Source of the DNA: Thermocatellispora tengchongensis
Lineage (GTDB): Bacteria > Actinomycetota > Actinomycetes > Streptosporangiales > Streptosporangiaceae
DNA length: 64,000 bases
NCBI RefSeq assembly: GCF_014202315.1
Contig: NZ_JACHGN010000004.1
Coordinates: forward strand, 62,001-126,000
Direction of reading: 5' to 3'
Shown: in pieces, positions 9,283-34,648 of the stretch
Layout: every line of letters starts with the position of its first letter
How positions within the stretch are numbered: the stretch's first letter is position 1
The notes under the pieces: model-generated
The model's database searches: none
Told to the model about the DNA's origin: nothing
Seen by the model: only the letters and a program-made list of their open reading frames with translations
Translations under genes and position numbers: made by a program

Positions 9283-9379
9283 ACGAGCGCCAGGGCCCAC
9301 GGCGATCCTCAGGGCACGCGGCGAGCCGCACGGCCCGGTGGGCGGGCGGGGGCACGGGCCACGAGGACGGCTCGACCGC

Positions 9380-13301: not shown

Positions 13302-14156
13302 ATGTTGCTGCATTCCGGACCACGACCCTTCCAGACGGTGACCGATCCCATCCCATCGCACGCCGGCGCGCTCCGCCCCCACCCCGAGGCCGTCCACCCG
13401 TACGCCGCGGCTCCGGGCGCGAAGACCGCCACCGAGGGGCCCGAGGTTCCCGGCGCGTCCACGCTGAAGCTGCTCGGCGGCTTCCGGCTCGTCCTGGACG
13501 GGGTGCCGGTCACCGTCAGCCCCAGGGCGCAGCGCCTGCTCACCGTGCTGGTCTGCCTGGGCAGGCACGCGCCCCGCAGCACGGTCGCCAACACGCTGTG
13601 GCCGGACAACCTGAGCACGCGCGCCCACGCCAACCTGCGTACCATCCTGTACCGGCTGCAACGGGTCTGCCCCGGCCTCGTGCTGTCCACCACGCGCGAC
13701 CTGTGGCTGTCGCCCGAGCTGCACGTGGACGTCGAGCACTCCCGCGCCATGGCGATCGAGCTGCTCAACACCCGCCCCGGCGCGGAACCGGCACTCCTGG
13801 AACGCGTGCACTGGACCGACTTCGCCGAGGACATGCTGCCCGAGTGGGACACCTCCTGGCTGGCCGACCACCAGTTCTGCTACCAGCGCCTCCGTCTCGA
13901 CGCACTGGAGCGGCTGTCCGACCTGCTGGTACAGGAGCAGATGTACGGCGCGGCGGTGCAGGCCGCCCTCATGGTCGTCCAGACCGACCCCCTCCGCGAC
14001 ACCGCGCACGAGGCGCTCATCCGGGCCTATGTCGCCCAGGGCAACCGCAACGACGCGATCAGCCACTACCGCGCGTACCGTCGCCAGCTCCGCGACGAAC
14101 TCGGCCTGGAGCCCGCCATGGCCGTAGGCCAGATGCTGTGGAGCGACGCGGCCTGA
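13302..14156 (+). CDS. SARP-family transcriptional activator (OmpR-type DNA-binding plus BTAD)
   Basis: A 284-aa regulator of the Streptomyces antibiotic regulatory protein type. After a 50-residue Pro-rich leader, LKLLGGFRLVLDGVPV opens the winged-helix domain, with NLRTILYRLQRV as recognition region. The bacterial transcriptional activation domain follows, ending in AYVAQGNRNDAISHYRAYRR and LGLEP. AGGAG lies 10 nt before the ATG. SARPs bind direct heptad repeats spaced 11 bp overlapping the -35 region. Such a site is present at 21193-21231 before the large plus-strand operon, making this the likely cluster-situated activator. Confidence 0.92.
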   Translation: MLLHSGPRPFQTVTDPIPSHAGALRPHPEAVHPYAAAPGAKTATEGPEVPGASTLKLLGGFRLVLDGVPVTVSPRAQRLLTVLVCLGRHAPRSTVANTLWPDNLSTRAHANLRTILYRLQRVCPGLVLSTTRDLWLSPELHVDVEHSRAMAIELLNTRPGAEPALLERVHWTDFAEDMLPEWDTSWLADHQFCYQRLRLDALERLSDLLVQEQMYGAAVQAALMVVQTDPLRDTAHEALIRAYVAQGNRNDAISHYRAYRRQLRDELGLEPAMAVGQMLWSDAA

Positions 14157-14961: not shown

Positions 14962-15930
14962 TCAGCCGAGTACGCCGGTGCCGTCGGCCGGGATCTCGGT
15001 GATCCGGGCATCAGGCGGGGCGGGGCCGATGCCCAGGGCGGACACCGCCGCGAGCGCCGCGGCGACCTGGCGGTCGGCGGAGGTGTGCCAGCCGCACAGC
15101 TCGCCGATGAGCCGGGGCGGCACCAGCAGACGGCGGTGCACCGTGCCCGTGGCGGGATCGGGGGCGGCCGGGCCGACCGCCGTGATCGCGGCGGCCATCC
15201 GGACCCGGGCCACCGGACGGCGACCGGGGGTGGTGTCCAGGAGGTAGCCGAGGTAGACCGGATCGGTCATCTCCATCTGCGTCTCCTCGCGGACCTCGCG
15301 CACGGCCGTGGCCGCCGCGTCACGGCCCTCGGCGCGCTCCACGGTGCCCCCGGGCAGCCCGCAGATGCCGTTGACGTCGACGTAGACCACCACCCGGCCG
15401 TCGGGGGCGAACAGCCACACCCAGGAGTGGCGGATCTTCAGGTCGTCGGGGACGGGTTCCTCGTGCCAGATCCAGGCGGCGCCGCTGTGCAGCCACGGCG
15501 CGATCCCGAACTCGCGCATGGCGGCGAGGACCCCCGGCGTGACGCCGTTCTCCAGGTACTCCGTCGTGCACGCCGCTCGGGCGCGCAGGGCGACGTCGAT
15601 GCGGCGCGCCTCGTCGGGGCGCATGTCGACCTCGGCGGGCCGGGCGAAGGCCGCGGTCGGCGACGTGCCGATGCGCCGGGCCGCCGAGAGGCCCGCCTCG
15701 CCGCCGTCGAAGACGTAGTGGGGGGCGTCGTCCACGCTGTCGAGGACCAGCGGCCGTCCCAGGCGCGGCGCCAGCCCGACCGCGGCCGAGACCGCGCGCA
15801 GGGCCGCCTGGCGGGGTGTCTCGCGGGAGGCGAGCGCGGCCCGCGGCAGCCGCCATCGGCCGCCCGCGGACCGGACGAGCAGCACCCGACCGTCGTGGTG
15901 GGTGACGAGCGAGGACGCGGTCGCCGTCAT
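14962..15930 (-). CDS. Tandem Nudix hydrolase-like protein
   Basis: A 322-aa protein with two Nudix folds. The first (about residues 5-75) has a degenerate box ending ALRAVSAAVGL, with the metal-binding Glu residues missing. The second (about 165-290) has GGTVERAEGRDAAATAVREV followed by REET, a near-canonical Nudix box with two extra residues before REV. It is therefore likely the catalytic domain that hydrolyses a nucleoside diphosphate linkage. ATG 15930 lies 4 nt after the HprK-like stop. It is the last gene of the seven-gene nucleotide operon; it may release or clean up a nucleotide intermediate. Confidence 0.82.
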   Translation of the reverse strand: MTATASSLVTHHDGRVLLVRSAGGRWRLPRAALASRETPRQAALRAVSAAVGLAPRLGRPLVLDSVDDAPHYVFDGGEAGLSAARRIGTSPTAAFARPAEVDMRPDEARRIDVALRARAACTTEYLENGVTPGVLAAMREFGIAPWLHSGAAWIWHEEPVPDDLKIRHSWVWLFAPDGRVVVYVDVNGICGLPGGTVERAEGRDAAATAVREVREETQMEMTDPVYLGYLLDTTPGRRPVARVRMAAAITAVGPAAPDPATGTVHRRLLVPPRLIGELCGWHTSADRQVAAALAAVSALGIGPAPPDARITEIPADGTGVLG

Positions 15931-15934
15931 CGTT

Positions 15935-17005
15935 CTATTCTGCAACCCCGGACCGCGCGGCGAGCTCGTCGAGCAGCGCGGCCGTGGACGCCGCGAGCGC
16001 GCCCATCGACTGCGTCAGCCGGTAGCAGCGCACCGTGGCGACGAGCCGATCGACCAGGCGCTGCCTGCGCGCGAGGTCCGTGCCGGGGAACCAGTCGGCC
16101 AGGAACGGGTCGTACTTCGTGCCCTGGAGCTCGATGTGCTCGTCGAGCATGGCCCGTGCGGTCTCGCCGCCGAGCCTGGTCAGCGCGGGCGCGGTGGCGG
16201 AGGAGTCGAACGCGGGGAACACCAGGGCGTCCACCGCGTGCTCGTCGATGAGCACGCAGCCGGTGACCTCGGCCAGCTCCGCGGGACGCACCCACAACGA
16301 CCCCGGCAGCACGTCGCCCGACGTCGTGGCGAGCGATTCGGTCGTACGATGCTTGCCGGCGAAGGTGTTGGTCGGATGGTCGCCGCTGGACAGCAGCCGC
16401 GTCAGCCGGATGTTCGACTCGGCCAGCGTCAGCAGCGAGTCGGTGCGGATGTTGACCGTGCGCGGGGAGCCGTATCCGGTGAGGCCGCCGCCGGGCGATT
16501 CCACGAGGGCCAGGTCGTCGTTGGAGACGAAGCCGGCGCCGCCGTGCACCAGCGCGCTCAGGATGCTGGAGGTCTTCCCGGAGCGCTTGCCCCCCACGAA
16601 GGCCACGCCGCGCCCGCGCAGCGACACCAGGCCGCCGTGCAGCAGCAGGTCGCCCGCCTGGTACGCCTGCCATCGCAGCATGTGCCTGACCGAGCGGAGC
16701 ACCTGCTGGGTGCGCCACTTGGGCGAGCCGGAGGAGACCCAGACGGCCCGCCGCCCGTCGTGCACCCACAGGACCCGGTCGGGCTCGTAGTCGGAGGACA
16801 GGATCAGCCGCTGCCATCCCGGCTCCCTGGGCGGCCCGGGGCGTACCAGGACCGAGGGCAGGCCGTCGCGGCCCGCGTCGTCGCCGGGACCGACGGTGAT
16901 GAACGGCCGGGTGAGCGCGACCAGCTCCATCACGACGTCGGCCGGCGCGGAGACGTGCACGGCCGCGGATCGGACCCGCGCGCACGCGGTGACATACTCA
17001 CTCAT
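15935..17005 (-). CDS. HPr kinase-like (HprK-type P-loop) protein
   Basis: A 356-aa protein. After about 110 N-terminal residues without a recognised fold it shows LLHGGLVSLRGRGVAFVGGK followed by RSGKTS, a Walker A loop in the setting typical of HprK-like kinases. SNDDLALV follows at the Walker-B-like position. HprK-type enzymes phosphorylate Ser/Thr on proteins or peptides, and homologues are known to tailor some lasso peptides. There is no HPr, PTS or lasso machinery here, so a small-molecule or partner-protein target is more likely. ATG 17005 overlaps the stop of the preceding gene (ATGA). Confidence 0.75.
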   Translation of the reverse strand: MSEYVTACARVRSAAVHVSAPADVVMELVALTRPFITVGPGDDAGRDGLPSVLVRPGPPREPGWQRLILSSDYEPDRVLWVHDGRRAVWVSSGSPKWRTQQVLRSVRHMLRWQAYQAGDLLLHGGLVSLRGRGVAFVGGKRSGKTSSILSALVHGGAGFVSNDDLALVESPGGGLTGYGSPRTVNIRTDSLLTLAESNIRLTRLLSSGDHPTNTFAGKHRTTESLATTSGDVLPGSLWVRPAELAEVTGCVLIDEHAVDALVFPAFDSSATAPALTRLGGETARAMLDEHIELQGTKYDPFLADWFPGTDLARRQRLVDRLVATVRCYRLTQSMGALAASTAALLDELAARSGVAE

Positions 17006-17538
17006 TTGACGAGCGTCTCCCAGTGCCGGTCGCGGTAGATCTTCGACTTCTGCGGGCCGATGGAGCCCTGGTACTTGCCCTTGTAGAGGGTGATCTTGCC
17101 CTTCGGCTTCCAGAAGGTCATCTGGGCGATCCGCATGCCGGGGTACACGCGCAGCGCCAGGGTGGAGAACAGTTGGAAGGTGATGGTGCCGATCGAGCCG
17201 ATGTCGATGAGGTCCGCGGTCACATGCACGAACAGCCCGGCCCGCGCGGTGCTCGACTTGGCGTGCACCAGCGGCACGTACTTCGTGCTGCCCACGATCT
17301 CGCGGGACGAGCCCAGGCAGAAGCTCAACGGCTCAAGCGTGAGGCCGTCCTCGGGAATCTTGACCTCGACGACCTCCGGCTCCACTCTCGGGTCGATGAT
17401 CGGGTCGCAGTAACGCAGGATCGTGTCGCCCAGAGTCAGATCGATGCTGTTCGGGTTGATGTGATCGGCATTGAACGGGGTGACGGTGATCTCGTCCGCC
17501 TCAACCCTGCTGCGGATCTCGTGGCCGCTGAGAATCAC
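17002..17538 (-). CDS. dCTP deaminase/dUTPase-fold protein, catalytic Glu replaced by Gln
   Basis: 178 aa, close to the usual dCTP deaminase length. NPNSIDLTLGD matches the N-terminal DCD signature. KSSTARAGLFVHVTADLIDI aligns with the family's RSSxARxGLxxHxTAxxxDxG, and YPGMRIAQMTFW with the C-terminal nucleotide-binding strand. By eye the catalytic Glu (LE of GxxGxxxLE; E138 in Escherichia coli Dcd) is Gln here (GTITFQLF), and the first Arg of RSS is Lys. Simple dCTP deamination is therefore doubtful. GTG 17538 lies 16 nt after the second paralogue's stop. It may be a non-deaminating binder or work with the neighbouring paralogue. Confidence 0.85.
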   Translation of the reverse strand: MILSGHEIRSRVEADEITVTPFNADHINPNSIDLTLGDTILRYCDPIIDPRVEPEVVEVKIPEDGLTLEPLSFCLGSSREIVGSTKYVPLVHAKSSTARAGLFVHVTADLIDIGSIGTITFQLFSTLALRVYPGMRIAQMTFWKPKGKITLYKGKYQGSIGPQKSKIYRDRHWETLVK

Positions 17539-17554
17539 GGTGGTCTCGAATCTC

Positions 17555-18076
17555 TCAGTGTTCGGACATGTTCGTGTGCAGTTTCGACGGCATGGGCCGG
17601 TCGTGCCGGCCGTACCACCCCTCGTAAGGGAGCACTCTGCCGGTCGTCGACCAGAAGGAGACCTGGCCCAGGATCTGTCCTGGATAGAGGTAGATGTCCA
17701 GGGCGGGCAGCAGCTCCAGGGTCCATCGGTGCACGGCGCCGCGATGCCCGAGATCCGCCGACAACTGGACGAACAGGCCGAGCCTGCCCATGGAACTGCG
17801 TCCGATCAGCGAGGTCACGTACCGGTCGCTGCCGATCCGCTCCAGCGTGTGGCCGAGGTAGAAGCGCCCCTTGCGCAGCAGGAAGCGTCCGTCGGCCGGC
17901 TCCAGCCGTTCGTACCGGGGTTTCGCGTCGGGGTCGTCGCCGGAGTGGACCCGGTAGATCTCCGCGCCGAGGCGGTAGTTGTAGCTGTTCGGGTTGACCC
18001 GGGACTCGTCGAACGGATCGATGACGATGTCGCCGCGGGCGACGGCCTCGGCGATGGCGGATCCGGTGAGGATCAT
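17555..18076 (-). CDS. dCTP deaminase-like protein, paralogue 2, conserved Asp replaced
   Basis: 173 aa. VNPNSYNYRLGAEIY, then GRSSMGRLGLFVQLSADL, TLELL and LYPGQILGQVSFW identify the dCTP deaminase fold. Here RSS and the catalytic Glu (WTLEL) are kept. The conserved T-A-x-x-x-D-x-G becomes SADLGHRGAVHR, so by gapless alignment the Asp is His. It differs strongly from its neighbour and is no recent duplicate. Family members are trimers with active sites shared between subunits, so a mixed complex is conceivable. ATG 18076 overlaps the stop of the phosphotransferase-like gene. Confidence 0.85.
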   Translation of the reverse strand: MILTGSAIAEAVARGDIVIDPFDESRVNPNSYNYRLGAEIYRVHSGDDPDAKPRYERLEPADGRFLLRKGRFYLGHTLERIGSDRYVTSLIGRSSMGRLGLFVQLSADLGHRGAVHRWTLELLPALDIYLYPGQILGQVSFWSTTGRVLPYEGWYGRHDRPMPSKLHTNMSEH

Positions 18077-19011
18077 GAGGCCGCCGATCCGGCGAAGTGC
18101 GTGATCACCAGGTTCCGGAAGTCCTCGTCCAGGGTCACCGGCGCGCCCCAGTTGCGCCACGCGTGCCGGTTCTCCGGCTCGCGCGCCGCGTAGAACGACA
18201 GGATTCCCAGCAGCGCCCACAGTTCGAAGTGGGGCACCATCTCGGCGTCGCCGGGGCAGACCTCGGCCGTGGCCGCCTCCAGGAACGGGGCGTGTTGCGG
18301 GTGGTTGCGCAGGTGGGCGCTTATCGCGCCCACGGCCTGCGCCGGGGTGGACAGGCCGACGATGGGCACGTTCAGCACCACGATCCCGCCGCCGGGCGTG
18401 ACGATGAGGTTCTTGAGGTTGACGTCGATCGCCACGGTGGTGAACGGCGCCGGGTTGCGCCCGGCCGCCTCGGCGAAACCGCCCGACAGCCACTCGTCCA
18501 CCGCCCTGCCCACGCGTGTGCCGTCGTAGAACGGGCGGGCGCGCCGCCAGTAGCGGCCCGCGTAGTGCAGGACGAACTCGCGGTGCGTGGCGATCACGGG
18601 CGCGTCGCGCTTGTAGAGCCCGAACCCGTCGTGCATCCTGGGCAGCTCGCGGCAGGCCAGCGCGAACGTGCACAGGTGCCGCACCAGCTCGGCGGTGGCC
18701 GGCAGGTCGCGGCCGTCGGTCAGCGCCGAGGCCAGGTCGCGCCCCTCGACGTACTCGGCGAAGACCGCGTCGAAGGGGTCGCCGCGCCGCGTCTCCCACA
18801 CCCGCCTGATGCGCTGGACCGGCACGTGCCCGGCGAGCGCGGCGTTGGCCTCGGCGAGGTACGCCAGCGGGATGTCGGAGTCGGTCACGTGCTTGGCCAC
18901 GAGGATCCCCTCGGCGGTCCGCACCTCGTAGACGAGGTTGTTGGTGCCGCTGAGCTCGCTGATCCGCGCGCCGGGGAACTCCCCTTCCAGGAACTCGCGG
19001 AAGGTCTCCAC
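18073..19011 (-). CDS. APH-fold (aminoglycoside phosphotransferase-like) protein, probably atypical
   Basis: 312 aa. The N-lobe has LSGTNNLVYEVRTAEGILVA followed by the Lys of KHV, and FAEYVEGRDL matches the hinge. The catalytic loop reads AIDVNLKNLIV where H-G-D-x-x-x-x-N is usual: Asp and Asn are kept but His is lost. The metal-binding Asp of the following strand appears as Asn (IVVLNVP). It may be a weak kinase or a pseudokinase. GTG 19011 follows the kinase/deaminase stop by 6 nt. The substrate is unknown; in this operon a nucleoside or sugar hydroxyl is possible. Confidence 0.7.
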   Translation of the reverse strand: METFREFLEGEFPGARISELSGTNNLVYEVRTAEGILVAKHVTDSDIPLAYLAEANAALAGHVPVQRIRRVWETRRGDPFDAVFAEYVEGRDLASALTDGRDLPATAELVRHLCTFALACRELPRMHDGFGLYKRDAPVIATHREFVLHYAGRYWRRARPFYDGTRVGRAVDEWLSGGFAEAAGRNPAPFTTVAIDVNLKNLIVTPGGGIVVLNVPIVGLSTPAQAVGAISAHLRNHPQHAPFLEAATAEVCPGDAEMVPHFELWALLGILSFYAAREPENRHAWRNWGAPVTLDEDFRNLVITHFAGSAAS

Positions 19012-19017
19012 GTCAGA

Positions 19018-20058
19018 TCACCGCCCTTCCGCCACGGGCGCGACGGCCCACTTCGTACCGACGTATTTGTGCGGCAACAGCTCGGACAGCGCGACCAGGG
19101 CCGGCCCGCCGTCCGACCGCACGACGGCCATCATGTCGCGGCTGTAGTCGAGCAGGATCTCGCGGCACAGGCCGCACGGCGGCACCAGCCGGATCTCCCG
19201 CCGCTCCTCCGACGGCTTGGGATGGCGTACCGCGAGCACGATGCGAAGGTCGCTCGCGCCCGCCGCGCGCGCCTTGCCCAGTGCGACGGCCTCGGCACAG
19301 ATCGACGCGCGGCCGACCATCGCCTCCAGGTGCAGCCCGGTGAACACCCTGCCGTCCCCGGCCACGATGACCGCGGCGATCTGGTGCCGGTTCTCGGCGT
19401 AGCGGGCGGAGATCGTGTCCTGCGCCAGCCGGACGAGCGAGGCCAGGCGGGCGCCGCCGTCACCTCCGGACGCGGGCTGCGGCGGCAGCGCGATGAGCTT
19501 CTTGGCCAGGTCGGCGACGCGCGCCCGCAGCTCGTCGAGGCCGGCGGAGTTGTCGATCTCGAAGTCGGGGACGATCGTGTCGATGCCGAGCTCGGTCGGA
19601 TGGTCGTCGGCCCCGGCCGTACGGTCGCCACGGCCCGCCTTCCGGCGCCTTCGCACGTCCTCGGGCGCGGTGACCCGCACGATGGTGAAGCCCTGCCAGG
19701 CCAGGCCGGCCGAGTCGGCGGGCCTGGCGTCGTCGCAGATCACCGCGTTCGCCCCGCCGAGCGCCGCGTTGCCCCACCGCTGGGCGAAGTCGGCCAGCAG
19801 GAACTCCGGGTCCACGGCGCGGAAGTGCGATCCGAGGAAGTTCAGCAGCGCGCCGTCCTGTTGCCCCGTGGCGAGCGGGAGACCGATGCGGGAGTAGAAG
19901 AACTCCTGGACGTCGTACAGGGGCGTGGCGGTCTTGACGATCGCGACGTCGCGCCCCATCTCCGCGAGGGTCTGCCGGAGCAGGCCCCCGCTGGTCGACT
20001 TCCCCGCGCCCGGCAGCCCGAACAGGGCCACGCGAAGCGGTGCGCGGAATTCGGTCAT
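19018..20058 (-). CDS. P-loop nucleotide kinase fused to cytidine deaminase domain
   Basis: 346 aa with two domains. Residues about 5-190: a deoxynucleotide-monophosphate-kinase-like P-loop domain with ALFGLPGAGKST, CDDARPADSAG and a C-terminal FEIDNSAGLDELRARV. Residues about 210-340: a zinc cytidine deaminase fold with GRASICAEAVALG (C-A-E zinc/proton-shuttle motif) and VPPCGLCREIL (P-C-x-x-C). All expected catalytic residues are present in both. The same order, kinase-like P-loop then deaminase, is described for anti-phage deoxycytidylate deaminases (DcdV/AvcD), although those use an H-A-E motif. ATG 20058 has GGGAGAG 7 nt upstream. Role: probably converts a cytidine nucleoside or nucleotide to its uridine form. 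Confidence 0.82.
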   Translation of the reverse strand: MTEFRAPLRVALFGLPGAGKSTSGGLLRQTLAEMGRDVAIVKTATPLYDVQEFFYSRIGLPLATGQQDGALLNFLGSHFRAVDPEFLLADFAQRWGNAALGGANAVICDDARPADSAGLAWQGFTIVRVTAPEDVRRRRKAGRGDRTAGADDHPTELGIDTIVPDFEIDNSAGLDELRARVADLAKKLIALPPQPASGGDGGARLASLVRLAQDTISARYAENRHQIAAVIVAGDGRVFTGLHLEAMVGRASICAEAVALGKARAAGASDLRIVLAVRHPKPSEERREIRLVPPCGLCREILLDYSRDMMAVVRSDGGPALVALSELLPHKYVGTKWAVAPVAEGR

Positions 20059-20071
20059 GCGGCTCTCCCGA

Positions 20072-20953
20072 TTACTTGCAGACGAACACGGAGTTCTGCT
20101 TGCTGAGCTCGAAGTACCCTCGTTCTGCGATGGCGGCCTTCACTTTCGCCTCGACGTTCGCGTAGAGCTGATCGAACATGGACTCAGGAAAATCTTCGCC
20201 GGCCATCGCTTTGGCGCCGCAGAACTTGTGACCGGTGGCGTAGAACTCCATGTACGGCTCGGTCGTGTCGAACCGCAGCGCGTCCGCATACGGCCGCTCC
20301 TCGACGCTCTCGAAGTGCCTGGAAAGATATTCGGCCGCGTTGTCGAGCACCATTTTGCCGCGCCGGGTGCGGGGCAGGCGCTCGATGAAGTCGGCGGGGA
20401 ATCCTACCTCCGCCATCGCGTCGAAGTGCATCTTATACATTTCCGGCATGGAGTGCCGGGCCTCGATGGTGACGATCGCGTGGCCCGACTTCTTGGTGAC
20501 CCGGGCGATCTCGGCGCACACCACGTCGGGCTCGGTGATGTAGTGGAAGATGAAATTGGCCATCACCCGGTCGAACGTGCCGTCGTCGAAGCGCGAGAGG
20601 TCCTCCGCCTTCCCCTCGACGAACGCCAGCGGCGCCCACGACACCGTGACGTTGCGTTTGGCCAGCTCAAGCATGGCCGGCGAGATGTCGAGCGCGACCG
20701 TGCGCCCCCCGTGGCGGATCTTGCTCACGACGTCCCTGAGGATGAACCCGTTGCCGCAGCCGAGGTCGAGCACGGCCTCCCGCCCGGTCAGGTCCAGGCA
20801 GTCCAGAATGTGGTCGGCCAGGGGCTTCGGGTTCTGGCGGAAGAGATTGTGCGTCTTCTGCTGCGTGGCCAGGGCGACGTTGTTGCCGAAGTGCACGCGT
20901 ATGTAGTCCAACCCGAAGTTGAACGGCTCCGCCTGCGACGTGCTCTCGCTCAT
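20072..20953 (-). CDS. SAM-dependent methyltransferase (class I)
   Basis: 293 aa. Motif I is AVLDLGCGNGF near residue 70, the acidic motif II is VALDIS, and motif IV with the following strand is FDRVMANFIFHYITEPD. It has a long C-terminal region rich in aromatic residues that may recognise the substrate. ATG 20953 has AGGTGA at good spacing; further upstream ATGs lie in the control region. It is the promoter-proximal gene of the minus operon. The acceptor is unknown; a pyrimidine nucleoside or an operon-encoded intermediate is likely. Confidence 0.87.
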   Translation of the reverse strand: MSESTSQAEPFNFGLDYIRVHFGNNVALATQQKTHNLFRQNPKPLADHILDCLDLTGREAVLDLGCGNGFILRDVVSKIRHGGRTVALDISPAMLELAKRNVTVSWAPLAFVEGKAEDLSRFDDGTFDRVMANFIFHYITEPDVVCAEIARVTKKSGHAIVTIEARHSMPEMYKMHFDAMAEVGFPADFIERLPRTRRGKMVLDNAAEYLSRHFESVEERPYADALRFDTTEPYMEFYATGHKFCGAKAMAGEDFPESMFDQLYANVEAKVKAAIAERGYFELSKQNSVFVCK

Positions 20954-22285: not shown

Positions 22286-23051
22286 GCTGAGCGTGGCCGG
22301 CGTCCTGGTGGCGCACGAGTGGCGGGTGCAGCGGCGCGACCTGGTGCCGCAGCTCATCCTCACGGTGATGCCGCTGGTGCTGATGGCGTTCCTGCTGCCG
22401 ACCTACCAGGCGGCGATGGCCGCGACGGGCGAGCCGGGGACGGGAGCCGAGCAGGCGGTGGCGGGACTGTCGGTGATGTTCTCCATGTTCCTCGTCTCCC
22501 ACGTGGGCATGGTGTTCTTCCGCGACCACGGCTGGAACACCTGGAACCGGTTCCGCGCCACGCCGGTGCCCGTCGGGGTGCTGGTGCTGAGCAAGGCGGT
22601 CGTCCCGCTGGGGTTGCTGCTGGCCCAGTTCACCGTGCTGATCAGCGCCGGCGCCCTGTTCTTCGGGCTCCGCGTCAAGGGCTCCCTGGCCGCGCTCGCC
22701 CTGGTGGTCCTGCTGTTCGCGGCGTGCCTGGTGGCGCTGGGCGTGCTCGGCTTCGCCGTGTGCCGCACGGTCGTGCAGATGACCTCGGCGGCCAACATCC
22801 TGGCGATCACCATGGCCGGGCTCGGCGGCGCCCTGGTGCCCCAGTCCTTGCTGCCCGCGTGGGCCGCCCCCGTCGCGCCCGCCACGCCGTCGTACTGGGC
22901 CGTGCGCGGCATGCGCGAGGTCGTCTCCACCGGGGCGGGCGTGGCCGAGGTCGCGGCGGAGCTCGCCGCGCTGGCCGCCTTCGCGGCGCTGTTCTCCACC
23001 CTGGCCGTCGTTCTCCTCAAACCGGATCAAAGGAAGATCTCATGGTCGTGA
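22275..23051 (+). CDS. ABC-2 type transporter permease
   Basis: 258 aa with six hydrophobic segments and an N-terminal cytoplasmic stretch, typical of ABC-2 permeases. FRATPVPVGVLVLSKAV matches the conserved loop before the second half. ATG 22275 lies within the end of the ATPase gene. Together with the preceding ATPase it forms a one-plus-one exporter, probably working as a 2+2 complex for a lipophilic product. Confidence 0.92.
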   Translation: MRRELSVAGVLVAHEWRVQRRDLVPQLILTVMPLVLMAFLLPTYQAAMAATGEPGTGAEQAVAGLSVMFSMFLVSHVGMVFFRDHGWNTWNRFRATPVPVGVLVLSKAVVPLGLLLAQFTVLISAGALFFGLRVKGSLAALALVVLLFAACLVALGVLGFAVCRTVVQMTSAANILAITMAGLGGALVPQSLLPAWAAPVAPATPSYWAVRGMREVVSTGAGVAEVAAELAALAAFAALFSTLAVVLLKPDQRKISWS

Positions 23052-24001
23052 TGCAGGGCGCGGACATCGCGCGGGCTCTCAGCGTCGTCGGGCTCACGGT
23101 GAACGACGTGCTCACGCTCGGCGGCAGCATGCTGACCGTGGGCCCCGCCTACCTCGTCGGCTCGCTGGCGGGCGGGCTCGGCAACCGCGGCAGCGATGTC
23201 GACATCCACCTGCTGGTCCCCGACATCGACAAGCCCACGCCGGCGTTCCTGTTCTTCTTCGGGCCGACGCCGATCGACATCGAGCACTACCCCGCGTCCA
23301 TGCCGGGGCGGATGATCGAGGCGGCGCGGGCGTTCCCGGTGCGCGAACTGCCGGTGGGCCCGGTGAGCACGGCGCCCGCTCCCGGCAAGCGCACGCGCCG
23401 CACCGCGGCCCGCTGGATGCACGCGCTGCCGCTGTTCCCCGGCCAGCCCCCGGTGTTCGACGAGACCGCGGCGGGCGACATCCTGCCCACCCTCGTCCGC
23501 GCCGCGCTGGACCAGCTCCTGCTCGTGTGGGCGACGGCCCGCCTGGCCGAGGGCGAGGCGGCGCGATACCTGTGGGCGCGGGCCGGCCGCGAACTGCTCG
23601 AACTGCGATGCCGCGGCCAGGGCGACGTGCTGACCAGCGAGAAGTGGCTGCCGAGCCGCGCCGCCCGCCTGGGCCTCGACCCGGAGTTCGTCGGCGCCCA
23701 CTATCGCGCGTCCAGCGAGGACGACCTCGTCGCCTTGCTCGCCGACACCGGCATGGCCGGCTGGGACCCCTGGCGGCTCACCGCGGTGCGCCCCGAGCCG
23801 GGACGCCGCGAGGTCAAGTTCGGCAAGCAGGTCCTGACCCTCACCCGCCACGGACGGCTGCTCGACGCGATCGGCGTGCAGGGCGCGGTGGCCGAGGCCG
23901 TCGGCGCGTACGACGCCGGCCGCCTGCTGCGCGCCATCCGCGACGGCGAGCTCGTCCTGGAAGTGGCGTCCTCCGAACTTGCCGAGGTGCTCGATGACTG
24001 A
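23042..24001 (+). CDS. Nucleotidyltransferase-fold protein of unknown role
   Basis: 319 aa. VGSLAGGLGNRGSDVDIHLL has the G-S...S-D-x-D pattern of the polymerase-beta/MNT nucleotidyltransferase fold. A third carboxylate is possible in PTPIDIEHY. The C-terminal 200 residues are helical and unassigned. ATG 23042 has AAAGGA upstream and overlaps the permease stop. Known members transfer NMP groups to small molecules, RNA or proteins. Within this operon an adenylylation/nucleotidylylation step on the product, or self-protection, is possible. I do not recognise a specific characterised homologue. Confidence 0.65.
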   Translation: MVVMQGADIARALSVVGLTVNDVLTLGGSMLTVGPAYLVGSLAGGLGNRGSDVDIHLLVPDIDKPTPAFLFFFGPTPIDIEHYPASMPGRMIEAARAFPVRELPVGPVSTAPAPGKRTRRTAARWMHALPLFPGQPPVFDETAAGDILPTLVRAALDQLLLVWATARLAEGEAARYLWARAGRELLELRCRGQGDVLTSEKWLPSRAARLGLDPEFVGAHYRASSEDDLVALLADTGMAGWDPWRLTAVRPEPGRREVKFGKQVLTLTRHGRLLDAIGVQGAVAEAVGAYDAGRLLRAIRDGELVLEVASSELAEVLDD

Positions 24002-24497
24002 CGACCGTGTCGGCGGAACCGACGTGATGTGGCTGCTCACCCACGGCGCGGGCATGGCCTGGCAGTACGCCATGGCCGTGCAGACGGCCCTGACCGACAT
24101 CGACGCGGCCATCGCCGCGGAGGACTATCCGGTCGCCGTGGAGGCGTGCGCGGTCGCGCTGCGCGCGATGGCCTACTGCGAGCAGGTCGGCGAGGGCTAC
24201 ACGGGCAGGCCGACGCACGTCGAGCATCACGTCCACCTGGCCGTGGACGGCTCGCCGGCGGCGCTGGCGCTGCGGCGGCTGCCCCCGCCGTGCGGCGCCA
24301 CCGCCGAGCAGGCGCAGGAGGCCAGGACCACCGTGCTGGCCGAGAACGAGAGGCTGCGGGCCCGCCTGCCCCTCACGATCCCGGTGATGCGCACGGCCAA
24401 CGGCTTCTTCCCGATCATGGGCATCGCCGGTGCCCTGGAGAAGCTGCGCGCCGAGAGCGGGCTGGGCGCGATGGATTGGGACCAATGGGGCATCTGA
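23994..24497 (+). CDS. Conserved-looking hypothetical protein, helical
   Basis: 167 aa, unrecognised. It is mostly helical with motifs MWLLTHGAGMAWQYAMAVQ, AYCEQVGEGYTG and VMRTANGFFPIMGIAG. No signal peptide or membrane helix is seen. ATG 23994 overlaps the stop of the nucleotidyltransferase gene, and the two are probably co-translated partners, as in antitoxin-like or accessory pairs. Its function cannot be stated. Confidence 0.7.
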   Translation: MTDDRVGGTDVMWLLTHGAGMAWQYAMAVQTALTDIDAAIAAEDYPVAVEACAVALRAMAYCEQVGEGYTGRPTHVEHHVHLAVDGSPAALALRRLPPPCGATAEQAQEARTTVLAENERLRARLPLTIPVMRTANGFFPIMGIAGALEKLRAESGLGAMDWDQWGI

Positions 24498-24516
24498 CGG
24501 TGACTACGGAGGGCGA

Positions 24517-24975
24517 ATGCCAACGGTGACCACGCGCCACACGTGCGCGGAGAACGCGGACGACGTCTGGGCGGCGCTGCTGGACAGCGAGTCGTACGCC
24601 AGCTACATGGACGAGGTCCGCGAGATCTCGATCGTCGAGTGGGAGGGCGACCGCCGGGTGAGCCACTGGTCGGTGCTGCTCAAGGGCTCGGAGCTGGAAT
24701 GGGAGGAGGAGGAGTTCATCGACCACGAACGCCGCCGCATCGAGTTCCGCCAGCTCGACGGCGATCTGGCCTACTTCAACGGCCACTGGCAGGTGACGGC
24801 CGACGAGCACGGCACGACCGCGGAGCTCCACGTCGAGTTCGACATCGGCATCCCGCTGATGAGCGAGATGCTCAACCCGGTCGCCGCGCGGGCACTGGAG
24901 GACAACTCCCGGGCGATCCTGGAGCAGCTCGGCCGACGGGCGAGGGCCGACGCCGCCGTACGGGTCCGGCCGTGA
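24517..24975 (+). CDS. SRPBCC/START-like (polyketide cyclase/COQ10-type) protein
   Basis: 152 aa. The pattern ENADDVWAALLDSESYASYM, then VREISIVEW, then NGHWQV and a long C-terminal helix is that of the helix-grip hydrophobic-cavity proteins used as lipid binders, aromatases/cyclases or chaperones. ATG 24517 has GGAGGGCGA directly upstream. In an acyl-chain operon a carrier or cyclase for an acyl intermediate is reasonable; the sequence does not decide between them. Confidence 0.8.
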   Translation: MPTVTTRHTCAENADDVWAALLDSESYASYMDEVREISIVEWEGDRRVSHWSVLLKGSELEWEEEEFIDHERRRIEFRQLDGDLAYFNGHWQVTADEHGTTAELHVEFDIGIPLMSEMLNPVAARALEDNSRAILEQLGRRARADAAVRVRP

Positions 24976-26267
24976 GCGAGCACCGCGGCGTGGCTCCCGG
25001 CGCCGGCGGAGGAGGCGCCGCGAGCGACAGGTCACCGGCCAGGGAGACCTTCCGGCGGATCCGCGCGCACATGTCCCCCGCGCTGGCGCTGGCGGGGAAG
25101 TTCGCCGGGCAGGGGGCGGTGGAGACCGCCGGCGAGGGGTGCCGGGTCCGGCTCTCCGACGGGCGATCCGCCCTCGATTTCGGGTCGTACGCCGTGACGC
25201 TGCTCGGCCACCGCCACCCCGGCGTCGTGGCCGCGGTCGCCCGGCAACTGCACACCATGCCCGTCTCGACCCGCACGCTGAGCAACCCGCTCCTCGCGTC
25301 CGCCGCCGAGGAGGTGGTGACGTACCTGGGGTCGCGACTGCCGCGCGTGTATTTCGGCGTCAACGGCGCCGACGCGGTGGAGGTGTCGGTCAAGCTCGCC
25401 CGCCTGGCCACCGGCCGCACCACCGTGGTCGCGGTGCGCGGCGCCTACCACGGCAAGACGATGGGGGCGCTCGCGCTGACGTGGCAGCCCCGGTTCCGGA
25501 CCGGGCTGGAGCACCTGCTCCAGGGCGTGGTGCACGCCGACCCGGGCGACGCCGAGGCGGTGGGACGGGTCGCCGCGTCGGGCGACCTCGCGGCGGTGAT
25601 CTTCGAGCCGGTGCAGGGCGAGAACGGCGTGGTCGTGCTCGACCCGGCGATACTGGCCCGCTGGGCCGCCGACGCCCGCGCCGCGGGCGCGATGGTCGTC
25701 TCCGACGAGATCCAGGCGGGGCTGCGGCGCGCCGGCCCCCGCTCCCTCGCGCTGGAGGCGGGGCTGCCCGTGGACGCGGTCCTGCTCGGCAAGGCGCTGG
25801 GCGGCGGCGTCGTCCCGGTGTCGGCCGCGGTCTGCTCCGAGCGCCTGTACCGGCCGTTGCTGGCCGACCCGTTCCTGCACACCTCGACGTTCGCCGGGCA
25901 GCCTCTCGCGATGGCGGCCGTGGGAGCGGCCCTGGAGGCGATCGAGTCCCACGCCGGGGCGGCGCCGGCGATCTCCGCCGCGCTGGGCGAGGGCCTGGCC
26001 CGCCTGCGCGAGGACCACCAGGACGTGATCACCGGCGTGCGCGGGCGGGGCCTGATCTGGGGGATCGACTTCGCCGGTCCCGAGCAGGCCGGCGAGGTGG
26101 CCTTCGCCCTCGCCGAGCGCGGACTGCTGGTGTCGCCGTGCCTGAGCCGTCCGGAGTGCCTGCGGCTGCTGCCGCCGATGACCGCCACCGAGCGCGAGGT
26201 GGGCGAGGCGCTCGACGTGCTGTCGGCCGCCGCCGGCCTCGCCGGGAGATTGGAGGTTCCCGCGTGA
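24972..26267 (+). CDS. Class III PLP-dependent aminotransferase
   Basis: 431 aa. FGVNGADAVEVSVKLAR is the phosphate-binding region. GAYHGKTMGAL, FEPVQGENGVVVLDP and SDEIQAGLRRAG follow, and the Schiff-base Lys is in LLGKALGGG. A 40-residue Gly/Arg-rich leader precedes the fold; GTG 24972 overlaps the SRPBCC stop. It could transaminate an aldehyde made by the thioester reductase encoded downstream, as TamH-type enzymes do in tambjamine alkylamine formation, giving a fatty amine. That coupling is inferred from the operon. Confidence 0.9.
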   Translation: MSEHRGVAPGAGGGGAASDRSPARETFRRIRAHMSPALALAGKFAGQGAVETAGEGCRVRLSDGRSALDFGSYAVTLLGHRHPGVVAAVARQLHTMPVSTRTLSNPLLASAAEEVVTYLGSRLPRVYFGVNGADAVEVSVKLARLATGRTTVVAVRGAYHGKTMGALALTWQPRFRTGLEHLLQGVVHADPGDAEAVGRVAASGDLAAVIFEPVQGENGVVVLDPAILARWAADARAAGAMVVSDEIQAGLRRAGPRSLALEAGLPVDAVLLGKALGGGVVPVSAAVCSERLYRPLLADPFLHTSTFAGQPLAMAAVGAALEAIESHAGAAPAISAALGEGLARLREDHQDVITGVRGRGLIWGIDFAGPEQAGEVAFALAERGLLVSPCLSRPECLRLLPPMTATEREVGEALDVLSAAAGLAGRLEVPA

Positions 26268-27517
26268 ACGACGATGGAACGATCGAGCACGGCGCGCCCC
26301 ATCCTTTCGACGGCTGCTGGCCCGACGCGGGCCGGTGGCTCGCGCCGGACGTCCTGGCCGAGATCGGCGCCCTCGCCGCGGCCGCCGACCGCGACGGCAG
26401 GCCCGCCGGGCGCGCCCTGGACCTGCTCCGCGGTGGAGGCTGGCCCGGCCTGGCGGTGCCGGAGAAGTTCCACGGCACCGGGCTGACGCTGGTGGAGTGC
26501 TGCGCCGTGCAGCGGGCGCTCGCCGTGGCCGACCCCGCGCTGGCGATAGCGGTGAACATGCACCTGTTCTCGGTGGGGCTCATGGTCGAGCACTGGCGCA
26601 GGCGCACCGACACCTCGTGGCTGCTGCTGGAGGCCGTCGCCACCCAGAACCGCCTGATCGCCTCGGCGTTCGCCGAGCCCAACCTGGGCGGTTCGGGCAC
26701 CCGCTCGACCTTGCGCGCCGAGCCGGTGGACGGCGGCTGGCGGGTGTCCGGCCGAAAGCGGCCGTGCTCGCTGGCCGGGCAGGCCGACCTGGTCTGCCTT
26801 CAGGTGCAGACCGCGGCCGACCCGTCGGAGGTGCTGGTCGCGCTGCTGCCCACGACGGCGCCCGGCCTGCGGGTCGTGGAGGACTGGGACACGCTCGGCA
26901 TGCGCGGCTCGGCGTCCGACACGCTGGTGATCGAGGAGTGCTTCATCCCGAAGGAGCTCGTCTTCTACCGGGCCCCGGCCGGCGCCGAGGACGACGACGT
27001 GCTCGCCGCCGGGGTCATCTGGTTCGCCCTCACGAGCACCGCCTGCTACCTGGGGGTCGCGCGGGCGGCGATGACGCAGGCGGCCACGCTGCTGCGCGCG
27101 CTGCGTATCGCGCACCTCGGCCAGAGCCGGGCCTCGCTGCCCAGCTACCAGGCGACGGTCGGCGACGCCGCCGCCGAGGTGCTGGCATTGGAGTCGGCCT
27201 GCGCCGAGGTGGCCCGCCGGATGGACGCGGGCGCGGAGCCGGAGAACCTGGTCGTCGCCGCGCTCGCGGTAAAGCAGCGGGCCGTGCGCGTGATACCCGC
27301 GTTCGTCGGCACGCTCGCCGAGGCGTGCGGCGGCGCGTCGTACGCCAGGTCGCTGCCGCTGGAGCGGCTCTGGCGCGACGCCCAGGCGATCCGGTTCCAC
27401 CCGCCGACCCCGGCGGCGGCGCGGCAGTACCTCGGCAGGCGGGCACTCGGCCTGCCGTCGTCGCTGGACCTCGACGAGTGCGCCCCCGGTCTCGCGGCCG
27501 CGGAGGCGGCGACATGA
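26264..27517 (+). CDS. Acyl-CoA dehydrogenase family protein (1)
   Basis: 417 aa, a flavin-dependent dehydrogenase. IASAFAEPNLGGSG is the FAD-contact segment, DTLGMRGSASDTLVIEECFI the middle beta-domain motif, and ACGGASYARSLPLERLWRDA the C-terminal helical domain. GTG 26264 has GGAGG 7 nt upstream. It probably introduces an alpha,beta double bond into a carrier-bound acyl chain or acts as a flavin oxygenase of that fold. It is one of three ACAD-like genes in this operon. Confidence 0.9.
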   Translation: MNDDGTIEHGAPHPFDGCWPDAGRWLAPDVLAEIGALAAAADRDGRPAGRALDLLRGGGWPGLAVPEKFHGTGLTLVECCAVQRALAVADPALAIAVNMHLFSVGLMVEHWRRRTDTSWLLLEAVATQNRLIASAFAEPNLGGSGTRSTLRAEPVDGGWRVSGRKRPCSLAGQADLVCLQVQTAADPSEVLVALLPTTAPGLRVVEDWDTLGMRGSASDTLVIEECFIPKELVFYRAPAGAEDDDVLAAGVIWFALTSTACYLGVARAAMTQAATLLRALRIAHLGQSRASLPSYQATVGDAAAEVLALESACAEVARRMDAGAEPENLVVAALAVKQRAVRVIPAFVGTLAEACGGASYARSLPLERLWRDAQAIRFHPPTPAAARQYLGRRALGLPSSLDLDECAPGLAAAEAAT

Positions 27518-28761
27518 CCGGCGGCGGGCGCCCGGACCGCGAGCGGGTCGTCGTCACCGGGGTCGGCGTCAAGAGCCCGGCGGGCACCACGGTGAAGGAG
27601 TCGCTGGCCGCGCTGCTGGCGGCCGAGTCGGCCGCGACGACGATCCCGGAGCTGACGCGTGCGGGCGCGGTGGTCGACTTCGGGTGCACCGTCCCGGAGT
27701 TCGGCAGGGAGAGCTACCTGACGCCGAAGGAGATGCGCCAGATCGACCGGCTGAACGCCCTGGCCATCGCGGCGGCGATGGACGCGGTGGCCGACTCCGG
27801 GCCGCACTGGCCCGCGTCCCCCGGGCGGAGCGGGGTGTTCGTCGGCACGGGCATCGGCGGGCTCGGCACGATGGAGCTGGCCGCGATGACCCACCAGCAC
27901 CGGCCGCACCGCATCCCGGCCTTCACCGTGCTGCGGGTGATGAACAGCTCCCCCGCCGCCCGGATCAGCGCGCGGCTCGGCGTGAGCGGGCTCACCCTCA
28001 CCTTCTCCACCGCGTGCGCCAGCGGCGCGACCGCCATAGGAGAGGCGGTGCGGCGGATCCGGTCCGGCGAGCTGACCACGGTGCTCGCCGGGGGCGTGGA
28101 CGCGCCGCTGACGCCACTGGTGGTGTCGGCGTTCGCGGCCATGCGCGCGTTGAGCACCCGCATGGACGTGCCGCACGAGGCGTGCCGGCCCTTCGACGAC
28201 GACCGCGACGGCTTCGTCATGGCCGAGGGAGCGGCCTTCGTCGTGCTGGAACGGCTCGACCACGCCATGGAACGGGGAGCCCGGGTGTACGGCGAGGTCG
28301 CGGGGTACGGCGTGAACACCGACACCGGCGACCTCGTCTCCCCCTCGGCCGACGGCGGCGTGGCCGCCGAGGTGATCGCCATGGCCCTGGCCGACGCCGC
28401 CCTCTCGCCCGGCGACATCGGCCACGTCAGCGCGCACGGCACCAGCACCGTGCTGAACGACCGGTCGGAGGCGCGCGCCCTGGAGCTGATCTTCGGGGAG
28501 GCGTGCCCGCCCGTGACCGCGCCCAAGGGCGTCGTCGGGCACATGATCGGCGCGGCGGGGGCGTTCGAGGCCGCGATGGCGCTCCTGCTGGCCCGCGAGG
28601 GTCTCGTCCCGCCCGTGGCCAACTTCCGGGCGGGGCGCGACGCCGACCGCATCGACCTGGTCAGCGGCGCGCCACGCCGCATACCGGTCAAACCCGCGCT
28701 GTCCACGTCGTTCGGCTTCGGCGGTCAGAACACCTGTCTCGTCGTCGTCCCCGCGCCTTAG
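27514..28761 (+). CDS. Beta-ketoacyl-ACP synthase, KAS II (FabF) type
   Basis: 415 aa thiolase-fold condensing enzyme. The catalytic triad is Cys in FSTACASGATA, His in SAHGTST and His in VGHMIGAAGAFE. The Gly-rich end SFGFGGQNTC is present. It elongates an ACP-bound acyl chain with malonyl units. ATG 27514 overlaps the preceding stop. No ketoreductase, dehydratase or malonyl transferase lies in the operon, so those would be borrowed from primary metabolism or a single condensation is made. Confidence 0.92.
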   Translation: MTGGGRPDRERVVVTGVGVKSPAGTTVKESLAALLAAESAATTIPELTRAGAVVDFGCTVPEFGRESYLTPKEMRQIDRLNALAIAAAMDAVADSGPHWPASPGRSGVFVGTGIGGLGTMELAAMTHQHRPHRIPAFTVLRVMNSSPAARISARLGVSGLTLTFSTACASGATAIGEAVRRIRSGELTTVLAGGVDAPLTPLVVSAFAAMRALSTRMDVPHEACRPFDDDRDGFVMAEGAAFVVLERLDHAMERGARVYGEVAGYGVNTDTGDLVSPSADGGVAAEVIAMALADAALSPGDIGHVSAHGTSTVLNDRSEARALELIFGEACPPVTAPKGVVGHMIGAAGAFEAAMALLLAREGLVPPVANFRAGRDADRIDLVSGAPRRIPVKPALSTSFGFGGQNTCLVVVPAP

Positions 28762-30528: not shown

Positions 30529-31550
30529 GGATCCTGGTCACCGGCGCGACCGGCATCGTGGGCAGCGAGGTGATGCGGACGCTGCGGGCCGCTCCCGGGG
30601 TCGAGGTCCAGGGGGTGTCGCGCTCGGGCGACGCCGCGCGGGGCGTGGCCAAGTGGCACCTCGGGGCCGAGCCGCCGCCCGCCGTGCTGCGCGGCCCGTG
30701 GGACGCGGTCGTGCACAGCGCCGCCGACATCCGCTGGAACCTGCCGTTCGACCAGGCGCGCCGGGCCAACATCGCCTCCACCGAGGCGGTGCTCGGCCTC
30801 GTGGGCCCGGAGACGACCGTCGTGCACGTCTCCTCCGCCTTCGCCGCCGGGCTCCGCGGCGACGTCGCCTCGGACGACCCCGCCGACTACCGCAACTCCT
30901 ACGAGTGGTCGAAGGCGGCGGCGGAGCGGCTGGTGGACGCCGCCTGCCCGAACTGGACGGTACGTCCACCGATGATCATCGGACGGCGGGCCGACGGCCA
31001 CATCGCCCGCTTCCACGGCGTCTACCAGGTGCTCCAGGGCTACCTGTGGGGCGCGTTGCCGGTCATGGTGGCCAACGACGCCTGCCGGGTCGAGCTCGTG
31101 CCGGTGGACGAGGTCGCCGCGGTCGTCGCCGCCCGCGCCCTGGCCGGGCGGCCCGCGGCCAAGGAGGTCGCCACGCTCGGGGCGGGCGACGGCGCCCTGT
31201 CCGGAGCCGCCGTCGTGAAGATCGTGTTCGACGAGCTGAACGCGTGGCGGGCCGGGCGCGGCGTGCCCCCGGTCGGCCTTCCGCCGCTGATCGCGCCCAG
31301 GCGCTGGGAGCGGTTCTTCCGGCCCTTCGCCGAACAGCACCTCAGCCGCGGGCAGCTCGCGCTGATCCACGCCTTCGACCCCTATCTCCCCTACTGGGCG
31401 ATGGAGGACCATCTCCGGCCCGACACCTACGTGGTGGACGTGGAGGACGCGCTGCGGGCGAGCATCCGCTACTGGGCCGACCGGCATCCGCAGGGGGCGA
31501 GCGCCACGCCGCGGCAGTGGCGCGCCGTAGGGGGCGGTGTCCGTGCCTGA
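30525..31550 (+). CDS. NAD(P)-dependent thioester/fatty acyl reductase-like protein
   Basis: 341 aa extended SDR. The GATGIVGSEVMRTLR nucleotide loop, NIASTEAVLGL, VVHVSSAF and the active-site Tyr/Lys of NSYEWSKAAAERLV resemble the male-sterility/thioester-reductase (NAD_binding_4) group more than sugar epimerases. The later WTVRPPMIIG...FHGVYQ region fits as well. It could reduce an acyl-ACP to the aldehyde that the aminotransferase of the same operon needs. ATG 30525 overlaps the FAAL stop. Confidence 0.78.
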   Translation: MRILVTGATGIVGSEVMRTLRAAPGVEVQGVSRSGDAARGVAKWHLGAEPPPAVLRGPWDAVVHSAADIRWNLPFDQARRANIASTEAVLGLVGPETTVVHVSSAFAAGLRGDVASDDPADYRNSYEWSKAAAERLVDAACPNWTVRPPMIIGRRADGHIARFHGVYQVLQGYLWGALPVMVANDACRVELVPVDEVAAVVAARALAGRPAAKEVATLGAGDGALSGAAVVKIVFDELNAWRAGRGVPPVGLPPLIAPRRWERFFRPFAEQHLSRGQLALIHAFDPYLPYWAMEDHLRPDTYVVDVEDALRASIRYWADRHPQGASATPRQWRAVGGGVRA

Positions 31551-34376: not shown

Positions 34377-34648
34377 CCGCTGACAACAGCGCGAGCACCG
34401 CGTCGATCAGGGCCTGGCTCACCGAGCAGGTCGCCCTCTACGTCGAGCTCGCGCCGGAGGCCATCGACCACGACACCGACCTCGCCTCGTACGGGATGGA
34501 CTCCATCCGCGCCCTCACGCTCGCGGCCCGGATCGAGGACGAGTTCGGCATCGAGGTAGACGAGGACCTCGCCTGGGACCACCGTACGATCACGGCCATC
34601 GCCGGCGTCGTCGCCGCCGAGCTCGCGAAGCGGGTGGAGGCCGTGTGA
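34373..34648 (+). CDS. Acyl carrier protein
   Basis: 91 aa, acidic. GMDSIRALTLAARIEDEFGI contains the phosphopantetheine-attachment Ser in the DS motif, followed by the recognition helix II. ATG 34373 overlaps the stop of the ACAD-like gene. It is the likely acceptor of the FAAL-activated acyl group and the platform for the KAS, ACADs and reductase. Confidence 0.96.
   Translation: MTADNSASTASIRAWLTEQVALYVELAPEAIDHDTDLASYGMDSIRALTLAARIEDEFGIEVDEDLAWDHRTITAIAGVVAAELAKRVEAV

Follow-up and report, generated by a model that had tools for sequence, protein, structure and literature searches.

Reciprocal active-site losses in two dCTP-deaminase-like paralogues of an actinomycete nucleotide operon

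A seven-gene nucleotide operon in Thermocatellispora tengchongensis

The stretch analysed here (the window) comprises 64,000 nucleotides of the Thermocatellispora tengchongensis genome (contig NZ_JACHGN010000004.1, positions 62,001 to 126,000), and our subject is an operon of seven genes, g1 to g7, that occupy positions 14962-20953 of it, all on the minus strand. They encode, in this order, a methyltransferase, a fusion of a P-loop kinase with a cytidine deaminase (CDA), an APH-like protein, two different dCTP-deaminase-like (DCD) proteins, DCD1 and DCD2, an HprK-like kinase and a tandem Nudix protein (Table 1). DCD1 and DCD2 lack different residues of the deaminase site, in a pattern that is fixed across related loci of actinomycetes and Rhizobium. 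The tight packing on one strand, with gaps of at most 16 nt, that an earlier note on this DNA had described was confirmed (gaps of 13, 6, -4, 16, -4 and 4 nt), and its several ATGA-type overlaps came down to two of 4 nt and a third, of 11 nt, that hinges on a TTG start of g7. A single promoter-like site was seen 5' of g1 (21185-21157) and is not used as evidence; terminator-like sites were sought and none found.

Among the family labels of that note, those of the two DCDs, the CDA, the methyltransferase and the Nudix protein were upheld by profile matches and that of g6 by a structural model, and the APH label of g3 stayed below the Pfam cutoff (19.2 bits against a gathering score of 23.2). 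The families point to pyrimidine-nucleotide chemistry, as the note had held. Both DCD proteins share the fold and most core motifs of dCTP deaminase and the bifunctional dCTP deaminase:dUTPase (PF22769), with 24-42% identity to the ordinary DCDs in the set compared, but are two diverged paralogues at one locus; against the equivalog model TIGR02274 (cutoff 92.8 bits) DCD2 scores above (101.4) and DCD1 below (69.6). The ordinary DCD of the same genome is a separate gene, on contig 25. The CDA domain of g2 (Pfam E 2e-8) exceeds the cutoff of NCBIfam PRK06848 (141 bits against 131), keeps the CAE and PCxxC motifs and has blasticidin-S deaminase as its best PDB match (E 9e-17), from which it differs in being fused, in the window and in Rhizobium alike, to a P-loop kinase and in its place in an operon with DCD paralogues. 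A structure prediction for g3 was poor (predicted local distance difference test score, pLDDT, 45) and was not used, which leaves weak sequence similarity as the basis of its label. The HprK label of g6 is likewise weak by sequence (Pfam E 0.19; NCBIfam 5e-4 to 3e-4, far under cutoffs; 19.5 bits against the 240 of TIGR00679, the equivalog for whole HPr kinases). Its AlphaFold (AF2) model, with a mean pLDDT of 85, matches the C-terminal domains of HPr kinases (1ko7: Z 13.3, root-mean-square deviation 2.9, 140 residues) and also PEPCK, matches across PEPCK being taken at superfamily level only. On this confident model we assign to g6 an HprK-type P-loop kinase domain, as is found C-terminally in HPr kinase and FomB-like phosphonate kinase, with an N-terminal half that differs from theirs. 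The first Nudix domain of g7 lacks, by eye, a full Nudix box.

Active-site residues and ancestry of the DCD pair

DCD2 was used as the query in three collections. In the order (345 genomes) there were 16 matches at E<=1e-26, the best of them beyond T. tengchongensis itself and genome G623 being 41-53% identical; 20 plasmid records matched, 11 with two or three DCD places and, by the totals, the other nine with one each; and 174 of 396 genomes in a phylum sample matched at E<=1e-14, with two adjacent DCDs, among the matches listed, only in T. tengchongensis and G193. The 28 DCD2 loci compared are the window, two from Micromonospora, G623, 14 further genomes of the order search, G193 and nine plasmid loci. 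L068 and L069 among them are near copies, and L109 and L115 were left out as copies of L062 and L064. DCD1 and DCD2 occur together in 27 of the 28 loci and are adjacent in 24 of these 27 pairs. The ordinary DCDs, taken from 31 loci, gave 30 sequences: 27 of the phylum sample (L077-L104 minus L100, which gave no DCD sequence and is absent from the residue counts and the tree), L117, L029 and L032. Labels as DCD1 or DCD2 followed the best match among eight seed sequences and were in place before any residue was counted, and residues are numbered after the aligned Mycobacterium tuberculosis DCD.

Deamination by a DCD is performed by a glutamate, Glu129 in M. tuberculosis. Ordinary DCDs kept this residue, Arg106, Asp119 and an aromatic residue (Phe or Trp) three positions after the Asp in 30 of 30 sequences. 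DCD1 kept Glu129 in 27 of 27 but in none of them Asp119 (His in 18, Asn in 8, Gln in 1) or the aromatic residue (Ala in 13, His in 8, Ser in 5, Thr in 1), and the phosphate-site Arg106 was lost in 11, belonging to locus types B and C described below, and kept in 16, including the window. DCD2 showed the reverse: Asp119, Arg106 and the K-Y-Q with which the C-terminal lid begins were kept in 28 of 28 and Glu129 in none (Gln in 19, Met in 9), with the aromatic residue present in 12 and replaced by Ser in 16, again including the window. In the window's own pair the DCD1 lid is degenerate, and DCD2 has Gln for Glu and an intact lid. No single DCD1 or DCD2 chain thus holds the full deaminase site. 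The earlier note's two different dCTP-deaminase-like proteins are borne out, and beyond this they are, as judged from this fixed reciprocal loss, reciprocally degenerate paralogues, each chain an incomplete DCD by its residues.

DCDs and trimeric dUTPases are classical homotrimers with active sites in the clefts between subunits (PMC4827122). Motif III of one dUTPase subunit holds the uracil and the deoxyribose, a Tyr stacking on the deoxyribose ring and the Asp three residues earlier binding the sugar hydroxyl (PMC3905902). Since DCD1 lacks the Asp and the aromatic residue that grip the 2'-deoxyribose, a substrate with another sugar is predicted; and since the pocket lies between chains, a mixed trimer could combine the Glu of DCD1 with the phosphate site and lid of DCD2.

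In a tree of 85 sequences the ordinary DCDs (support 100/100) and DCD1 (99/94) each fell on one side of a branch, with a warning from the program that long branches may have drawn the window-type and Rhizobium DCD1 together. Distances among DCD1 and among DCD2 sequences were correlated over 26 pairs, L069 being left out (r=0.898), and none of 10000 permutations reached as high (maximum 0.415). Tree and distances fit one old duplication followed by joint inheritance, and are no proof that the two proteins touch.

Recurrence of the pair and its partner genes

The whole operon has few close relatives. A g6 scan of an 84,980-species collection by exact-peptide patterns, which reaches close relatives only, returned Micromonospora echinofusca, Micromonospora halophytica and Umezawaea tangerina, plus a single weak match, and g6 searches found 1 of the 396 phylum-sample genomes at E<=1e-10, T. 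tengchongensis itself, and 6 of 341 genomes in the family at E<=1e-8, strongly only in T. tengchongensis and G623. Both Micromonospora genomes carry g1-g6 in the same order as the window and then g7, whose relative in M. halophytica is a 78-residue open reading frame (L035:185-421) matching just the first part of g7. Both also keep the acyl-amine operon that in the window diverges from the nucleotide operon, beginning ~450 nt from it, with everything from the ABC ATPase to the ketosynthase and reductase present at 42-85% identity; no relative of the AMP-ligase was found in either Micromonospora cluster. The earlier note's placing of the nucleotide operon in a probable biosynthetic cluster, next to an acyl/amine operon, is supported. 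G623 keeps g2-g7, its g2 lacking the N-terminal P-loop; beside this truncated kinase-CDA gene we saw a transposase-like fragment (IS630 type by eye; L039:8268-10400), as in an operon remnant. Umezawaea was rejected as a relative of the whole operon: its one DCD match, 33% identical, lies apart from its HprK, and it has an APH and HprK pair related to g3 and g6 without the DCD pair, the APH being 29% identical to g3. An operon-like run in U. tangerina (L010:3755-11017) encodes a methyltransferase, a Nudix protein, an APH, a ParA/Mrp-like P-loop protein, a class II tRNA-synthetase-like protein, an S66 LD-carboxypeptidase, an APH and an HprK ~50% identical to g6.

A smaller set travels further. 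By hidden Markov models (HMMs) of partner genes, 18 of the 28 loci have the kinase, 14 the CDA and 15 a g1-type methyltransferase; a complete core of five genes (DCD1, DCD2, P-loop kinase, CDA and methyltransferase) is present in 13, among them Micromonospora, Nonomuraea and Streptomyces plasmids and two Rhizobium plasmids. As the loci were found by DCD2 queries these frequencies are conditional on DCD2, and the seeds were drawn from the same set (the window, L034, L036, L062, L063, L065, L066, L068, L071-L073, L075, L105, L106, also L010), so that a match in any of those rows is built in. Of the 14 loci with both kinase and CDA, 8 have them as separate genes and 6 as a fusion; the CDA motifs (CAE, PCxxC) are intact in 14 of 14 domains and the kinase P-loop in 16 of 18. 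A comparison set of 41 loci (220,688 bases) gave no kinase match, one for the CDA (51 bits, L041), two for the methyltransferase (54 bits in L085, 33 bits in L010), and one for g3 (28 bits, L010); HprK was matched in both L010 and L041. This set is no pure background, since L010 and L041 were fetched for HprK, and L014 and L015, which have acyl-CoA-dehydrogenase matches, come from Micromonospora clusters. Since the set recurs in two Micromonospora genomes and its core in distant ones, and since the ordinary DCD is encoded separately, the grouping of the seven genes is not accidental, and the possibility left by the earlier note that the genes rarely co-occur falls away.

Plasmids of Rhizobium etli Mim1 and R. 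sullae carry an operon of DCD1, DCD2, methyltransferase, kinase-CDA fusion and Nudix genes, without the APH and HprK genes. The R. etli methyltransferase is 53% identical to g1 and the fusion 46% to g2 in both plasmids; the window and these loci both hold the five-protein core, which is therefore common to an actinomycete and a proteobacterium. In R. sullae (L106:660-8088) genes for a BMP-family ABC transporter, a MurR/RpiR regulator, a HAD protein and a metallophosphoesterase adjoin it. Between this core without APH and HprK and the Umezawaea APH and HprK without a DCD pair, the seven genes, implied by the earlier note to be one set, are not indivisible.

Other loci have other biosynthetic partners, including GT4, epimerase, AurF-like N-oxygenase and EPSP-synthase-fold enzymes. 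Type A (nine loci: L062-L066, L108, L111-L113) has kinase, DCD1, DCD2, CDA and methyltransferase, after which come either sugar-nucleotide genes or one for a radical SAM protein, together with a GT4 glycosyltransferase; kinase and CDA are separate, and no CDA was found in L064. Type B (eight loci: L068, L069, L071-L073, L075, L110, L116) combines DCD2 and DCD1 with a second GT4 family; five of its loci also have an AurF-like N-oxygenase and three an EPSP-synthase-fold relative. In L068, L069, L071, L072 and L073 the N-oxygenase gene lies beside DCD2 of the pair, accompanied by GT4 and HIT genes, and L072:14346-15944 resembles, by eye, CTP synthase. Type C (L067, L070, L114) has a kinase relative; in two of these loci DCD2 is, as called, the N-terminal part of a longer protein (L067:1081-3612, 843 residues; L070:9897-12326, 809 residues), the remainder of that in L067 matching PPDK-type ATP-binding and PEP-utiliser domains. 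L107 differs from all of these; it has TauD, PIG-L, GT4 and an aminoacyl-tRNA-ligase-like gene.

A possible pathway, its alternatives and the surrounding genes

We give an even chance to a reading in which the operon forms the half of a biosynthetic cluster that handles nucleotides, DCD1 and DCD2 are subunits of one split enzyme, and the product derives from a pyrimidine nucleotide. The core would make or remodel such a nucleotide: phosphorylation of a nucleoside monophosphate towards the triphosphate would fall to the P-loop kinase and deamination of the nucleoside to the CDA, and in the split enzyme, of dCTP deaminase/dUTPase ancestry, DCD1 would give the base-deaminating Glu and DCD2 the phosphate site and C-terminal lid. 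Its natural substrate probably bears ribose or a modified sugar in place of 2'-deoxyribose. The methyltransferase and Nudix protein may tailor or trim the product, and the APH- and HprK-like kinases of the window may be add-ons for self-protection or tailoring. In the divergent operon an acyl chain bound to an acyl carrier protein (ACP) would be built, released as an aldehyde and aminated, and the product exported, with the two operons presumably serving a single product; the exporter, ketosynthase, aminotransferase and reductase genes, with the partner genes in Micromonospora and in types A and B, suggest a decorated nucleotide. Pyrimidine nucleoside antibiotic clusters such as those of nikkomycin/polyoxin and blasticidin likewise mix nucleotide, methyltransferase and glycosyl- or amino-transfer genes, and the EPSP-synthase-fold enzyme of three type B loci is a further likeness to such clusters; we know of no DCD pair in any of them.

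Several observations weigh against this reading. Motif III of a single chain contains Asp119 as well as Glu129, so that a mixed trimer could not join them in one pocket, and the best case for a heteromer, loss of the Arg from DCD1, is unavailable to the 16 of 27 pairs that keep this residue, the window's own among them. DCD1 and DCD2 lie 1.2-9 kb apart in L067, L070 and L114, and L074 has DCD2 alone. DCD2 formed one group in 36% of bootstrap trees; a tree holding it together had a slightly better likelihood and was not rejected (p-AU 0.58). Both DCD genes travel with the operon, so the correlated distances also fit linkage. No acyl, glycosyl or exporter genes were seen beside the core in the Rhizobium operons, one of which adjoins a predicted nucleoside-type importer, and the 60 kb surveyed in G623 yielded no methyltransferase and no acyl operon.

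DCD1 and DCD2 might instead have become, after duplication, two separate homotrimeric enzymes, a deaminase and a dUTPase-like pyrophosphatase acting in sequence on a pathway nucleotide, a serious rival that we nevertheless consider rather unlikely. The Asp used by dUTPases is retained in DCD2, which, like them, lacks Glu at the deaminase position, and DCD1 has its phosphate-site Arg in the majority of pairs; the 11 of 27 without it should bind no triphosphate by themselves, and both sugar-site residues are gone from every DCD1.

A second serious rival, in our estimate unlikely, is detoxification, salvage or self-resistance, in which a toxic cytosine nucleoside is taken up, or inactivated by phosphorylation, deamination and methylation. 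The nearest PDB relative of the CDA domain, the APH- and HprK/FomB-like kinases, which are of types used in resistance, the transporter, HAD and metallophosphoesterase genes beside the R. sullae core, and Rhizobium loci free of obvious biosynthetic partners all agree with it. It leaves two divergent DCD proteins unexplained, and types A and B carry glycosyltransferases and sugar or N-oxygenase genes instead of resistance-type kinases.

Phage defence by altering or depleting nucleotide pools is improbable. Several loci are on plasmids, and AvcD-type antiphage deaminases, like g2, place a zinc deaminase after a P-loop domain; kinase and CDA are nevertheless separate genes in the majority of the DCD-pair loci that have both. 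PADLOC gave no family for g2-g6 or g7, and for g1 only methyltransferase-containing models (mads_2, E 1e-18, and two weak ones). g2 matched CDA models and no antiphage NCBIfam, although whether either library includes an AvcD-type model was left unchecked. Thirteen phage records found by tblastn each had one distant DCD match, a viral-contig scan by exact-peptide patterns returned four stretches, none a relative, and the neighbouring genes are biosynthetic, so that the module depleting nucleoside triphosphates proposed in the earlier note drew no support from PADLOC or phage records. An accidental grouping of housekeeping-type nucleotide genes, for which one might cite the ordinary folds, has next to no probability, contradicted as it is by the order kept in Micromonospora, the core kept in Rhizobium and the separate ordinary DCD.

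Beyond the operon itself, the split-enzyme reading extends to a broader proposal, which we hold tentatively and at somewhat less than even chance: an old split of dCTP deaminase into two co-inherited, singly incomplete subunits would be the core of a mobile pathway family in actinomycetes and Rhizobium that builds a sugar-modified pyrimidine nucleotide, joined here to a carrier-protein-made acyl-amine. Every fold in the operon is already known, and the main new result is the DCD pair with its residue pattern. No counterpart of the pair, the pattern or the module was found in the open-licence literature, a scope that does not establish the absence of a report; this agrees with the earlier note, which knew of no characterised counterpart. 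If the proposal is true, the pair is a clean case of reciprocal degeneration, with catalytic elements divided between two co-inherited paralogues, and how the work at one shared site is divided becomes directly testable. For genome mining, the pair marks several locus architectures with different tailoring enzymes, of which one solved product could decode many, and the Rhizobium operon, with its five genes, offers the core in compact form as a place to find the reaction.

Around the nucleotide operon lie the genes of the divergent operon and a candidate regulator (Table 1). The thioester-reductase-like protein scores 67 bits with TIGR01746, below cutoff, and in the Micromonospora clusters an ACP sits, by eye, between the dehydrogenase and the ketosynthase.

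Table 1. Genes of the nucleotide operon and its neighbours, in window coordinates
Feature	Position	Strand	Basis and remarks
g1, class I SAM methyltransferase	20072..20953	-	Pfam Methyltransf_11 E 1e-21; core module
g2, P-loop kinase (GLPGAGKST) fused to blasticidin-S-deaminase-like CDA	19018..20058	-	core module
g3, APH-like protein (weak call)	18073..19011	-	Pfam APH E 1e-3; add-on
g4, DCD1, dCTP-deaminase fold	17555..18076	-	Pfam DCD (PF22769) E 2e-32, 112.7 bits, cutoff 27
g5, DCD2, dCTP-deaminase fold	17002..17538	-	Pfam DCD (PF22769) E 5e-36, 124.5 bits, cutoff 27
g6, HprK/PEPCK-superfamily kinase	15935..17005	-	AlphaFold model and structure match; add-on
g7, tandem Nudix protein	14962..15930 (ATG) or to 15945 (TTG)	-	Pfam NUDIX E 4e-12
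SARP/BTAD-type activator adjoining the operon, candidate cluster member	13338..14156	+	Pfam BTAD E 2e-17
ABC ATPase	21401-22285	+	Pfam; kept in both Micromonospora clusters
ABC-2 permease	22275-23051	+	Pfam; kept in both Micromonospora clusters
MNT-like nucleotidyltransferase (weak), protein without assigned family, SRPBCC protein	23042..24975	+	Pfam; kept in both Micromonospora clusters
Class III aminotransferase (25071-26267), acyl-CoA-dehydrogenase-fold protein, FabF-like ketosynthase	25071..28761	+	Pfam, NCBIfam; kept in both Micromonospora clusters
Fatty-acyl-AMP-ligase-like protein	28846..30528	+	relative not found in Micromonospora clusters
Thioester-reductase-like (NAD_binding_4) protein	30525..31550	+	Pfam E 7e-25; 42-44% to Micromonospora
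Window-side additions: two acyl-CoA-dehydrogenase-fold proteins, ACP (34373-34648), fatty-acid-hydroxylase-like protein, flavin reductase	31537..36064	+	Pfam

Further along the window a second acyl/amine run on the minus strand (41878-50003) encodes an FlK-like thioesterase, a pyridoxal-phosphate (PLP) decarboxylase, two class III aminotransferases, a PreATP-grasp/PGM1_C protein, an acyl-CoA dehydrogenase and a KASIII. Positions 8001-10000 are simple-sequence-like, with a GC skew of -0.24, an AT skew of +0.27 and overlapping low-complexity open reading frames.

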